Part shown: positions 5,462 through 11,635 of the stretch, in pieces | How positions within the stretch are numbered: position 1 is the stretch's first letter | Layout of the letters: each line of letters starts with the position of its first letter | Source of the DNA: Deltaproteobacteria bacterium | Lineage (GTDB): Bacteria > Desulfobacterota > Binatia > Binatales > Binataceae | Reading direction: 5' to 3' | Length of the DNA stretch: 64,000 nt | NCBI GenBank assembly: GCA_021801125.1 | Contig: JAJYYI010000114.1 | Location: 1 to 64,000, forward strand | The notes under the pieces: model-generated | What the model saw: only the letters and a program-made list of their open reading frames with translations | Databases searched by the model: none | Told to the model about the DNA's origin: nothing | Translations under genes and position numbers: made by a program

Positions 5462-8380
5462 TTAGAGCTGCTTTTCGACCCCAACCTCAGGCGAAGCGAA
5501 CTCGCGGCTGGGCGTGTTCAACCGGCGCGCAACTGCCTCGAGCTCGAAGGCTTCGATAACATCTCCCGGTTTCACGTCGTTGAAGTTCTCAAGGCCGATA
5601 CCGCACTCATAACCCGCCTGCACCTCGCGAACGTCATCCTTGAACCGTCTGAGCGATCCAATTTTGCCTTCCCACACAACCCTGCCGTCACGAACCAAGC
5701 GAGCCTGGCTGGAACGCAAAACCTTCCCGTCGAGCACCATCGAGCCCGCGACCTTGACGCCCGAGACGGTGAACACCTGGCGCACCTCGGCGCGACCCAG
5801 GGTCTTTTCACGATAGGTCGGCGCAAGCAGACCCTCCATCGCTTGGCGCACTTCCTCGAGGGCCTGGTAGATCACCGAATAGAGCCTAATATCGACGCCC
5901 TCAGCTTCCGCAAGCGTGGCCCCCTTAGGCTCCGGACGAACATTAAACCCTACGACAATCGCTTTTGAGGCGGCCGCGAGAGTTATATCGGTCTCGGTAA
6001 CGCCGCCTACCGAAGCGTGGATAACGTCAAGCTTGACTTCATCGGTGGACAACCGACGCAGAGCTTGGCCCAGCGCCTCGACGGAGCCCTGGGTGTCACC
6101 TTTCACGATTACCTTAAGTTCTCGCACCTCGCCGGCTTTCATCCGTTCGCTAAGCTCTTCCAGCGAAAGCCGGCTGGTTTTCTGCAGGTCGCCTTCCCGT
6201 TGCTTGGCTTGACGTAACTCGGCAATCTGGCGGGCCTTAGCCTCCTCGCCCACGACGTTGAACGCCACACCGGGTTCGGGAACACTAGACAAGCCGAAAA
6301 GTTCCACCGGAATCGACGGGCCAGCCTCCTGCACGCGCTCGCCTCGATGATCGGCCATCGCCCGGACGCGACCAAAGGAAGTCCCGCAAACGAAGGCGTC
6401 TCCCTGGCGCAGCGTGCCGTCCTGAACCATTATAGTCGCCACCGGGCCGCGGCCGCGGTCCAGCTTCGACTCAAGAACGATCCCGCGAGCGAGACGCGTA
6501 GGATTAGCCTTGAGTTCCAGCACCTCCGCTTGCAGCAAGATCATCTCGAGCAACTGATCGATACCCTGCCGGGTGCGAGCTGAGATCGGCACCGTAATCG
6601 TGTCGCCCCCGTATTCTTCCGGCGCAAGGCCTCGCTCGGCCAACTGCCGTTTGACACGCTCAACATTCGCGTCAGGGCGGTCTATCTTATTGACCGCCAC
6701 GACGATAGGTACTTCGGCCGCTCGAGCGTGAGCAATTGCCTCCTCGGTCTGCGGCATGATGCCTTCATCGGCAGCCACCACCAGGACGACGATATCGGTC
6801 AATTTGGCGCCCCTGGCGCGCATTCCGGTAAACGCCTCGTGCCCCGGCGTATCGATAAACGTCACCGTTTGGCCGTTTACGGTCACCGTGTATGCGCCGA
6901 TGTGCTGCGTAATCCCGCCCGATTCGCCAGCCGCAACGTCAGTGTGCCGAATCGCGTCCAGCAAGGAGGTCTTGCCGTGGTCGACATGCCCCATCACGGT
7001 GACCACGGGTGGGCGCGGTACGAGCTGCTCCGCCGGTGTCTCGACCTCCTCGGTCATCAGCGAATCGACATCCAGCGCGGAGCTTTCCACCTGATACCCA
7101 AACTCACCAGCCACCAAGGCCGCCGTGTCGACGTCCAGCCATTGGTTCACGGTGGACATCGTTCCCAGTTCCATAAGTTGCTTGATCACCGCGGCGGCCT
7201 TGACGCCCATGTTATGGGCGAGATCGCCGACCGAGATTCCCTCCGCAATCCGCAACGTGCGCTTGGACGCCTTCGGCGTGGTAATCGTGGTCTTTTTCTG
7301 CTCTTTGCCAGGCAGCGCACGCCGTTTCTTCGGAAAGCGAAAACCGCGCATCTCCCGCTCGGAGAGCACGTCGGTGGGTTCTTTTTTGACCACTCGTTTT
7401 TTCTTAAGCACGCGCGCGCCGGGTTTGGCTGCAGCCGGCACTCCCATCTCAACCACAGCGCCCGTAGCCGGCGCGGCTGCGCCGGCTACGGGCGCGGCCA
7501 CCTTGGGGGGCGCCGCAGGTGCGGACGCGCTTGGAGCCGTCGGCTTATGCAGATCGATTTTGCCCAGAACTCGTGGTCCGCGTTGCGAGAGATCGTCGAG
7601 GCTAGGCCCTGACGGGCGCGCCACAGGCCTTACGTTTGGAGGCGCAGCGGCCGGTCGGGTTTCCTCCGCGGCCACGCGTTTAGCGGGCACCGCGTGCGGT
7701 GGACGCTCTGGCACACGCTCTTCATGGACCTCGCCGGCGGGTTCGACGGCGCTGGCCGCCCCGACCTCGGCCTTCGCCAGGCTTCCCCCTCGACCGAGCT
7801 CGTCGGCCGAAAGAGTCTCTCGGCTTGTCAGCGCGGCTAATGGAACCTCGGGGCTTATCTTCGGCTGGCTTGGCGCAGTCGCGGGCTTCTCTACCGCTAC
7901 CTCGGCGACTTCAGCGGTTTGCGCTGGTGTTGGCCCCGCTTCAGTTTCGGGCGCTAGAGGCGCCTCAAGACCCATTGGGACTTCGATTCCCAGCGGCACC
8001 TCGGCCTCCGGGGCTTCCAAGCCCTCTAGAAACAGGCTCGCTTCGGCCTCATCTTCAGCGGCAGACGCCGAGCTAAAAGTGAAGGTTTCATCGGGCTTTT
8101 GCGCCGGCGCCTCGGCATGACGACGCCGCAGCACATTGGCTGCCAGCCGCTTTTCGACGATCACGCCGGACTGAGTCTCGACGACTTCTTCGCGGCGAAG
8201 GGCTGCGGCTCGATGAGCTTGCGACTCAAGCTCCGCCTTCACGCGCTCCGCTTCGTTCACGTCGAGCAAGCTAGATTCCGAGCGCGCGCCTTCCAGTTCA
8301 AGGCGTTTGCAACTTGCCAGCACTTCTTCGATGCTGACCCCCCAATCGGCGGCCAGGGTCTTAATTCTCTTTCGCGCCAT
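5462..8380 (-). CDS. infB: Translation initiation factor IF-2
   Basis: IF-2 is the GTPase that brings initiator tRNA to the 30S subunit and promotes subunit joining. At 972 residues it has a long Ala/Pro/Glu-rich linker (about residues 90-330), an IF2-N module near 375-440 and the G domain with GHVDHGKT near residue 464, DTPGHEAF and NKID. Beta-barrel and C-terminal domains follow, ending after GDVIEAFE. The N-terminal IF2 module ([17 protein letters not shown]) sets the start. The linker DNA carries a 17-bp perfect palindrome, listed separately. Confidence 0.98.
7458..7495. repeat. Perfect 17-bp inverted repeat with 4-nt loop inside the infB linker
   Basis: The arm GCGCCCGTAGCCGGCGC (7458-7474) is followed by GGCT and then by its exact reverse complement (7479-7495). 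It lies in the Ala/Pro-rich linker, where sequence constraint is low, and stays in frame, encoding an Ala/Gly/Pro/Val stretch. This could be a small palindromic insertion or a chance product of GC-rich low-complexity coding. Confidence 0.85.
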
Positions 8381-8398: not shown

Positions 8399-8704
8399 CT
8401 AAGCATCGTGTGACAAACTAACCAGATGTTCGAGCTTCTCCGCAAGCGCCTGCCGTTCAGCGCGGGTTACGTTTTGCCTAAGCGAGACGAACGTCTTGAC
8501 TTTCGCTTCAACGAACAGCCGAACACATCCTTTGCGCGGATGGAGATATCCGCCGCGACCATCGAGGCGGCCGCCAGTGTCCACACACACGCCTTCGGGA
8601 TTCGCGACCAGGCGAACCAGCGCTGACTTGAAGTCCGCGGTGCGGCACCCCAAGCAGGTGCGAATCGGCTTACGACTTGATTTCAGCGCCGACGCTGGCC
8701 TCAC
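8399..8704 (-). CDS. rnpM: YlxR/RnpM family RNA-binding protein (DUF448)
   Basis: The signature RTCLGCR near residue 15 and the GRGGYLHP segment identify the YlxR family, recently described as an RNase P modulator (RnpM) in Bacillus subtilis. The 101-residue protein lies between nusA and infB, the near-universal position. The GTG start at 8704 overlaps the end of nusA by 35 nt. Few other in-frame starts would keep the RKPIRTCLGC core, so this start is probable but not certain. Confidence 0.92.
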   Translation of the reverse strand: MRPASALKSSRKPIRTCLGCRTADFKSALVRLVANPEGVCVDTGGRLDGRGGYLHPRKGCVRLFVEAKVKTFVSLRQNVTRAERQALAEKLEHLVSLSHDA

Positions 8705-10076
8705 TCCCGCTCTGGGTCACCGCTGAACCATCCGCGGTCTCTTCCACGTCACGAGTCTGCGACGGCGCGCTGGAATCCTGCTCCCCAGCAGGCGGGCCGG
8801 TCAAGGCCGCTTGTTCAGCAGCCTCCTGGATGGCTCTTTGCTTCTTCTCGACGTGGGCGCGAGCAGCCTCGATCAGCTGATGCGCGCGCTCCCGACTAAT
8901 ACCCTCGATTTCGAGCGTTTCTTCGTCAGCCTCGGCAAGTTGCTCGGCGGAGCGCAAGCCCCATTGGTAAAGCAACTCGGCATTAATCTCACCGACTCCC
9001 TGGATTGCGTTGAGAGAAGCCCGCGCCGCACGAGCTTCCTCCTCAGCCTCCGACTCGCCGCGAACCTCGAGCTTCCAGCCGGTCAAGCGATGGGCCAGGC
9101 GCACGTTTTGGCCGCGCTTGCCGATAGCCAGCGAAAGCTGATCATCCGGCACGATAACCTCCATCGCGCGTTCCTCTTCATCGAGGATAACCTTCGAGAC
9201 CTTGGCCGGCGCCAGCGCGCGGCACACCAACTCAGCCTGATCCTCGGTCCAAGGCACGATGTCTATCTTCTCGCCACGCAACTCCTGGACGATCGCTTGC
9301 ACGCGCGTGCCCTTTACGCCGACGCAAGCACCGACTGGATCGACGTCGCTGTCTTTCGAATATACCGCAACCTTCGCCCGCGCCCCTGGCTCGCGCGCAC
9401 ACTGGCGAATCTCCACGATGCCCTCGTAAACTTCCGGCACCTCCTGCTCGAACAACTTGCGCAGGAATTCCTCAGCAGTGCGAGAAAGCACGATCACCAA
9501 ATCGCGCTCGGTAAGCTGCACGTCGAGGATGAGCGCCCGGATTCGATCTCCTTGCCGATAACGCTCGTGCGGGATCTGTTCCTTTTCGGGTAGCACGGCC
9601 TCGGTCCTGCCGAGGTTTACAACGATATTCTTGCGCTCGAACCGCTGCACGATTCCGGAGGTTATTTCCCCTTTTCTATCCTTGAACTCGCCGTAAATCT
9701 GCTTGCGCTCGGCGTCCCGTATATGCTGAATGAGGTTCTGCTTGGCAGCCTGTGCCGCGATCCGGCCCATGGCCGCGGTGTCCAACTTGATTAGAATTTC
9801 GTCTCCCACCTGAGCCTCGGCATCGTAACTCGCCTGAGCCACGGCCAGCTCGATTTCAAGGGCCGGATTGGAGACCGCCGCGACAACATCCTTTATTTCA
9901 AACAGCTCTACCTCGCCCAGTTCCGGACTGAAGCGAGCTTCGAATCGCCGTTCCGCGCCAAAAGTGCGCTTCGCGGCCGAGAGCATCATCTCTTCGACCG
10001 CTTTGACGACTATCGTTCTTTCGATACCCTTTTCTTTTGAAACCTGGTCGATAACGCGGCTCAGATCGATTTGCAT
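8670..10076 (-). CDS. nusA: Transcription termination/antitermination factor NusA
   Basis: NusA binds RNA polymerase and modulates pausing, termination and antitermination. The 468-residue protein has the N-terminal polymerase-binding domain, an S1 domain (about 135-200), tandem KH domains with VGVKGTRVQAIVQEL and IGKRGQNVRLAHRLTGW, then a C-terminal helix-hairpin-helix-like repeat (IQGVGEINAELLYQWG). An acidic tail follows. The order rimP-nusA-rnpM-infB is standard. The intergenic stretch to rimP is 119 nt. Confidence 0.98.
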   Translation of the reverse strand: MQIDLSRVIDQVSKEKGIERTIVVKAVEEMMLSAAKRTFGAERRFEARFSPELGEVELFEIKDVVAAVSNPALEIELAVAQASYDAEAQVGDEILIKLDTAAMGRIAAQAAKQNLIQHIRDAERKQIYGEFKDRKGEITSGIVQRFERKNIVVNLGRTEAVLPEKEQIPHERYRQGDRIRALILDVQLTERDLVIVLSRTAEEFLRKLFEQEVPEVYEGIVEIRQCAREPGARAKVAVYSKDSDVDPVGACVGVKGTRVQAIVQELRGEKIDIVPWTEDQAELVCRALAPAKVSKVILDEEERAMEVIVPDDQLSLAIGKRGQNVRLAHRLTGWKLEVRGESEAEEEARAARASLNAIQGVGEINAELLYQWGLRSAEQLAEADEETLEIEGISRERAHQLIEAARAHVEKKQRAIQEAAEQAALTGPPAGEQDSSAPSQTRDVEETADGSAVTQSGSEASVGAEIKS

Positions 10077-10195: not shown

Positions 10196-10684
10196 TCAAT
10201 CGAAATCGTATTCGCGATTAGCCGCCTTGATCTCGCTGAGCTCCAGCCTTTGCCGTTGTCGGCTGAACTCGTCGTCGATCTCTATTGCGTCGGCACTGAC
10301 GACCGCCAGGCGACCCAAGAAATTCTTTTGGCCGCCCTGCGGCGCCCGTAGATACACCCGCACTCGCTCCCCGCGGCAAGCTTCAAAGTCGCTCAGGCGC
10401 GACAGCGGACGGTTAACGCCGGGCGACGAGACCTCTAGAACATAGCTGCCCGCAAATGGGTCGTAGACATCGAGCACACCGTCAAGCGCGCGGCTCACGT
10501 TTTCCAGGTCGTCCAAAGTGACGCCGCCGCCCGGCCGATCCACGGAGAGGCGCAAAAGCCCTCCTTTTGAAGACCTCTTGCATTCAATCCACACCAATTC
10601 GAAGCCTTCACGCTCAATATGAGGCTCAAGTAACTCACATACTTTTTGCGCCGCTGGCTCAAGTCGTATCACCCTCGCGGACAT
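10196..10684 (-). CDS. rimP: Ribosome maturation factor RimP
   Basis: RimP assists 30S assembly. The 162-residue protein shows the N-terminal alpha/beta domain (GFELVWIECKRSSKGGLLRL..DRPGGGVTLDDLE), the conserved YVLEVSSPGVNRPL motif and a C-terminal SH3-like domain ending in ELSEIKAANREYDFD. It is the first gene of the operon. An intrinsic terminator sits only 13-20 nt upstream of its start, so its expression probably depends on read-through of that terminator or on a promoter very close to the start. Confidence 0.96.
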   Translation of the reverse strand: MSARVIRLEPAAQKVCELLEPHIEREGFELVWIECKRSSKGGLLRLSVDRPGGGVTLDDLENVSRALDGVLDVYDPFAGSYVLEVSSPGVNRPLSRLSDFEACRGERVRVYLRAPQGGQKNFLGRLAVVSADAIEIDDEFSRQRQRLELSEIKAANREYDFD

Positions 10685-10696
10685 CTTACCGCCAAC

Positions 10697-10717
10697 AAAA
10701 AATGGGCCCGAAGCCCA
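10697..10717 (-). terminator. Intrinsic terminator just upstream of rimP
   Basis: Read on the minus strand, the sequence is a TGGGC / GCCCA stem with a TTCGG loop, followed at once by six T residues (plus-strand A-run 10697-10702). This is a classical Rho-independent terminator shape. The T-run ends 13 nt before the rimP ATG. It lies in front of the operon rather than behind a recognised gene, so it marks either attenuation of rimP-nusA-infB or the end of a short upstream RNA. Confidence 0.85.
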
Positions 10718-11035
10718 CCTTTATAGCCAGCTTAACTTAAATGAAACAATCTTTCAAGTTAAGCATAGAGAGACGCCCCCTCGCGGGCGCCAATGCCACC
10801 CGGACAGCAATCAGCCGCTGCGCGTTGCGAACCTGTTGGCCCGCAACGCGCTTAAACGGCCAGATGAGTTTAAATAATGAAGCGAGGCTCCCTGAGGACC
10901 CGGCTACGAAGGCGAGGAGTCGACCACTCCACCTGGGCCGCCGCTTCAGGACCCATCCGGAACCTGCAAGCCGATAACATTCTCGCGGAGACTTTCGTCT
11001 CCTTCGCTTAAGGTGTGAACTTAAAGGTCGGCTAC
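10697..11035 (-). ncRNA. Candidate structured leader RNA / attenuator upstream of rimP
   Basis: No convincing gene lies here, but several strong helices do. In transcript order they are: AAGCGA (11009-11004) pairing with TCGCTT (10885-10880) as a closing helix; GGAGAC-GAAA-GTCTCC (11002-10987), a 6-bp hairpin with a GNRA tetraloop; an imperfect rod from GGTTCC (around 10960) to GGGAGCC (around 10888); a 9-bp helix CGCGTTGCG (10850-10842 with 10829-10821, 12-nt loop); a 9-bp helix GCTTAACTT (10764-10756 with 10738-10730); then the terminator. The GNRA loop and the T-run both favour the minus strand. It does not match tmRNA, RNase P, SRP RNA, T-box or the common riboswitch motifs I know. A premature-terminator leader upstream of rimP has been described in Enterobacteria. 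Homology to it is not shown. Confidence 0.55.
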
Positions 11036-11326: not shown

Positions 11327-11635
11327 CTAGAAGGGGAGCCAAGCCTCGCGCGCCTGATGATCGGCTTCGTGGAAAATACTTATCGCACTATCGTAGTCGC
11401 CATCCTTCATCGCCTCCTCGCCAGCCGCGTAGAGAGACTTCGCATGCTTCACGTAACGTGGCCGATTCCCGTCTTTGGCGGCCTTATCAATCAATTTTTT
11501 TGTCTTTGCCGCCACCGCCTCAGCCTGTTCCTTCGACATTGCGTTGTCTTGCGCCCATGCGGAGACACCGGAAGCGCCAGCGATTGCCAACGAAAGCAGC
11601 ACTGCCGCAAGTCGCCCAGAACTAGAGATTTTCAT
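11327..11635 (-). CDS. Small exported protein of unknown function
   Basis: This 102-residue protein has a clear Sec signal peptide (positive MKISSSGR, hydrophobic core, likely cleavage after AWA). The mature part is about 70 residues, charged and helical. Its KSLYAAGEEAMKDGDYDSAISIFHEADHQA stretch is reminiscent of small alpha-helical periplasmic proteins such as SmbP-like metal binders, or of a single TPR. A strong ribosome site AAAGGGGG stands about 8 nt before the ATG at 11635. The metal-binding comparison is only by general pattern. It appears to be a single gene, with no co-directional partner nearby. Confidence 0.7.
   Translation of the reverse strand: MKISSSGRLAAVLLSLAIAGASGVSAWAQDNAMSKEQAEAVAAKTKKLIDKAAKDGNRPRYVKHAKSLYAAGEEAMKDGDYDSAISIFHEADHQAREAWLPF

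Follow-up and report, generated by a model that had tools for sequence, protein, structure and literature searches.

A 64,000-nt stretch of DNA from an uncultured bacterium, here called the window, carries the genes rimP-nusA-ylxR-infB in this order, as determined by a Pfam domain search (Table 1). The source genome is referred to as G000. The sole congener compared, G030, is deposited as 'Deltaproteobacteria bacterium isolate FK3.bin127'. On the upstream side of rimP, a small gene (11327-11635, minus strand) encodes a protein of 102 aa that is predicted to be exported and is without Pfam match. This gene was found in only three of the 41 family genomes, and a paralogue of its product, 78% identical, is encoded elsewhere in the source genome (G000:C59:91157-91462).

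A previous sequence-only reading described the region in front of rimP as a single structured leader of approximately 340 nt. The elements on which it was based, i.e., a closing helix, a GAAA-capped 6-bp hairpin, a rod, a palindrome and a terminator, are all present on the minus strand at the places given. Their interpretation is discussed below.

Table 1. Genes and features of the rimP locus in the window, all on the minus strand.
Feature	Position	Description
infB	5462-8380	Pfam IF-2, IF2_N
ylxR (DUF448)	8399-8704	Pfam YlxR
nusA	8670-10076	Pfam NusA_N, S1, KH_5
rimP	10196-10684	Pfam RimP_N and DUF150_C; ATG at 10684
GUUGG directly after U-tract	10692-10696	GTTGG or ATTGG in most of the family
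U-tract of terminator, 6 T	10697-10702	T-run in 21/21 family sequences
rimP-leader terminator hairpin	10700-10720	invariant GGGC and GCCC (21 family sequences); unique in genome
Putative transcription start, just 5′ of hairpin	10720-10723 (~10722)	6-9 nt downstream of predicted -10
Predicted -10 element TAAGCT	10729-10734	17-nt spacer to -35; placement relative to hairpin common to family loci
Predicted -35 element TTGAAA, rimP operon promoter	10752-10757	TTG in 21/21 family loci
Palindrome GCTTAACTT..AAGTTAAGC	10730-10764	second 9-bp helix of the sequence-only reading; overlaps -35 and -10
Spacer hairpin, 14 bp, 4-nt loop	10820-10851	in spacer upstream of promoter; conserved in genus; without U-tract
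Closing helix, GNRA hairpin and rod	10868-11014	non-conserved spacer DNA

The terminator in front of rimP

As is the case for the general rimP-leader, the terminator is located upstream and on the coding strand of rimP-nusA-infB. Its core stem UGGGC/GCCCA (10717-10713 / 10707-10703) encloses the loop UUCGG and can be extended into the U-tract. A premature terminator with six T residues had been correctly recognized at this place by the sequence-only reading; only its distance to the rimP ATG is 12 nt instead of 13. This distance falls inside the range of 4-130 nt of the general rimP-leader. Two other family loci exceed it, with over 130 nt between the hairpin and the rimP match. The stem core comprises only 5 bp before the pairing runs into the U-tract, and a mechanical terminator scan of the window did not list this hairpin.

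The GGGC/GCCC stem followed by a T-run precedes rimP in each of the 21 family loci examined, and both hairpin and U-tract are 100% identical between the source genome and its congener. In the family alignment of the stem, 97.6% of the cells are paired. The stem is invariant across the family and does not covary, so covariation does not prove the pairing itself. The 21 family loci served to build a covariance model (32 positions), which matches 38 of the 41 family genomes, with one match in 37 of them and two in G037. Of the three genomes without a match, two yielded no rimP and one yielded a fragment only. The single match in the source genome is the site upstream of rimP. A sample of 118 genomes of the phylum yielded matches at E ≤ 0.01 in 41 of them, and of the 29 phylum match loci fetched, other than the source's own, 24 directly adjoin rimP, 23 of these in sense orientation.

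Some individual loci show additional features. The two matches in G037 have equal scores (G037:C25:9412-9443 and G037:C80:630-661) and may stem from duplication of a contig end or from a second copy. Five phylum loci (L057, L064, L067, L069 and L074) have a match to the terminator model with no RimP within the stretch fetched. Four family loci (L012, L021, L023 and L024) have an apparent second possible hairpin, of the type GTTCGCC..GGGCGAAC, between the U-tract and rimP. The window lacks this second hairpin, with just 12 nt between U-tract and rimP.

The predicted promoter and the spacer upstream

Immediately upstream of the terminator, a sigma70-type promoter-like sequence is present (10757-10729), and each of the 21 family loci has a counterpart of it. 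The top-scoring promoter match 5′ of the hairpin starts with TTG in all of these loci, compared to 6.7% of shuffled upstream sequences, and 5% of the shuffled sequences attain the median score. The predicted -10 element, which in the window is a weak match to TATAAT (3/6), ends 7-15 nt before GGGC in the family loci. In the congener, TTGAAA and the 17-nt spacer following it are identical, and the promoter as a whole is 93% identical. With the promoter at this position, the predicted transcript would extend from approximately 10722 to 10697. The segment of about 10765-11035 is situated upstream of the predicted start and is regarded as spacer outside the attenuator. In some loci of other families within the same class, a TATAAA-like element, read by eye, is located at a greater distance upstream; an abutting promoter may therefore be a trait of this family.

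The sequence-only reading mentioned two 9-bp helices in this region. Both are present; however, one overlaps the predicted promoter, whose sequence accounts for it better (10764-10730), and the other is in fact a stem of 14 bp (10851-10820). Within the palindrome formed by the former, sequence identity to the congener amounts to 91% and only 7/9 pairs are kept, indicating that it is constrained as a promoter rather than as a helix. The 14-bp hairpin, GCGCGTTGC..GCAACGCGC, includes two G-U pairs. With its loop it reads GCGCGTTGCGGGCC-AACA-GGTTCGCAACGCGC in the window, and its equivalent at the same place in G030 reads GCGCGTTGCAGACC-GTCC-GGTCTGCAACGCGC. All 14 pairs are kept between the two genomes, in both of which the hairpin is single-copy, with one compensatory double change and two changes from G-U to Watson-Crick pairs.

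The domain further upstream, which contains the closing helix AAGCGA/TCGCTT (11009-11004 / 10885-10880), the GAAA-capped hairpin (11002-10987) and the rod, is not conserved. Most of the segment upstream of the promoter shares 42-47% identity with the congener. For the rod domain this value is 42%, compared to 21-44% for shuffles of the same stretch, and a covariance model of this domain found no match at the orthologous place in the congener, even at E 10. On the congener alignment, 3/6 pairs of the closing helix are kept. Of the six aligned pairs of the GNRA hairpin, five are kept, but three of these are G-U pairs and the GNRA loop is missing, so its conservation is weak at best. Among relatives, the helices of the sequence-only reading have thus fared differently: the 14-bp hairpin is conserved within the genus, whereas the closing helix, the GNRA/rod domain and the promoter palindrome are not.

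The folding energy of the whole segment (351 nt) is far lower than that of dinucleotide shuffles (z -6.25), and the congener's segment also folds below its shuffles (z -3.6). The signal is unevenly distributed: 100-nt windows around the 14-bp hairpin reach z -4.5 to -6.1 and the promoter/terminator part z -4.4 to -5.1, while the closing-helix/GNRA/rod domain has a z of -1.8, with control stretches of the window ranging from +1.5 to -2.8. Since the signal originates from the hairpin and from the promoter/terminator part, the segment is not confirmed as a single structured leader of approximately 340 nt. An Rfam search of the segment yielded no family at cut-off. Permissive thresholds gave chance-level matches only, the best being RAGATH-36 with 19.6 bits against a cut-off of 70. 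Neither a tRNA search nor a plasmid DNA similarity search with the segment found anything. A tmRNA is ruled out, as the ssrA gene of this genome is located on another contig (170.7 bits).

Probable attenuation of the rimP operon

According to Naville and Gautheret (2010; PMC2965389), no attenuator is more ubiquitous than the rimP-leader. In their description it is a short terminator situated 4-130 nt ahead of the gene, with a GGGc(...)gCCC stem that is conserved and no larger conserved structure, and NusA has been proposed as the protein that reads it (PMC2965389). The terminator in the window corresponds to this general rimP-leader, and not to an unrecognized RNA class as had been supposed when premature termination before rimP was taken as enterobacterial only. 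It shares with it the short hairpin with invariant GGGC/GCCC, the U-run, the position upstream of rimP-nusA-infB, the distance to the gene, the lack of a larger conserved structure and the restriction to rimP, as illustrated by the single match in its own genome and the 24/29 phylum loci beside this gene. It differs in its lineage, an uncultured deltaproteobacterial group, and in the predicted promoter that abuts the hairpin in this family, which would limit the terminated RNA to about 26-35 nt.

The functional element is therefore quite likely a transcription attenuator of this known general type and, by analogy, probably a NusA-feedback terminator. RNA polymerase would start from the predicted promoter at about 10722, upon which the hairpin UGGGC-UUCGG-GCCCA, followed by UUUUUU, would be formed almost at once. 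Transcription could then stop in the U-tract, resulting in an RNA of approximately 26 nt, while part of it would read through into rimP-nusA-ylxR-infB. NusA may raise termination at this site, as the analogy to B. subtilis and E. coli suggests, in which case a surplus of NusA would lower the expression of its own operon. In B. subtilis, NusA is autoregulated in that it stimulates termination within its own 5′ leader (PMC12288461). The suggestion of the sequence-only reading that NusA could be the sensor is in line with the published proposal. Moreover, since the predicted promoter abuts the terminator, the terminated RNA would be very short, leaving no room in that transcript for an upstream antiterminator, which favors a protein- or polymerase-driven mechanism such as NusA feedback. 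These results extend the rimP-leader attenuator to an uncultured family of deltaproteobacteria, in which a predicted promoter abuts the terminator, and to the phylum of this family.

Two described leaders allow a closer comparison. The distance from the start of transcription to its termination before rimP is 31 nt in S. agalactiae (PMC4448216). An intrinsic terminator at about this distance, in front of rimP-nusA-infB, is common to both bacteria, although start and stop were mapped by RNA-seq in S. agalactiae and are predicted here. The Rfam family RF01770 (rimP) shares the operon and the terminator in front of rimP. Its covariance model has no match in the genome of the window or in the 14 family relatives searched, and the tandem terminator with CCCg..cGGG, described in some Gammaproteobacteria, is not seen here.

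Other readings of the leader and the spacer hairpin

The hairpin starts within a few nucleotides of the putative transcription start and its stem sequence is invariant instead of covarying, both of which would suit a stem-loop that stabilizes the mRNA at its 5′ end or binds a protein there and is not a terminator. Such a role is unlikely in view of the uninterrupted U-run that follows the stem in 21/21 loci and of the termination observed at the equivalent site of S. agalactiae. A structured leader RNA of about 340 nt, representing a new class that senses NusA or ribosome-assembly status and thereby controls the terminator, is very improbable. The low folding energy of the whole segment, the similar tendency in the congener and the compensatory change in the 14-bp hairpin are in its favor. 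However, the fold signal is local, the promoter-like element found family-wide separates the upstream helices from the terminator, the rod domain is conserved neither in sequence nor in fold, and 18/21 family loci have no comparable hairpin, yet do possess the terminator. More generally, the very low folding energy of a long intergenic region can stem from separate pieces instead of from one RNA, in this case the hairpin, the promoter palindrome and the terminator.

The spacer hairpin calls for an explanation that concerns the spacer only and is compatible with the attenuator. It might belong to a transcript from the upstream side (e.g., that of the small exported-protein gene, 11635-11327, with its long 3′ region) as the 3′ end, a site of processing or an independent small RNA, and we consider this a tentative option with a somewhat less than even chance. 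That the hairpin, together with the surrounding spacer, constitutes a minus-strand RNA of its own, restricted to the genus and unrelated to the rimP attenuator, is rather improbable. The absence of a U-tract, the lack of a conserved promoter in the searches and the distance of approximately 475 nt to the upstream stop codon all argue against the reading as part of a transcript from the upstream side. That the hairpin belongs to the small gene itself has become less likely, because no hairpin of this sort is present downstream of the paralogue in the source genome, which also counts against an RNA from the upstream side. Although the basis is only two or three genomes, position and pairing are kept in both members of the genus, and the G-U pairs are compatible with pairing on the minus strand only. 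Stems of at least 12 bp within 700 nt upstream of rimP occur, among the 21 family loci, only in G000, G030 and G024. The same three genomes, and no others of the family, have the small exported-protein gene upstream of rimP. The spacer of G024, the third of them, contains a hairpin of 14-15 bp that is unlike the one of the window in sequence and place.
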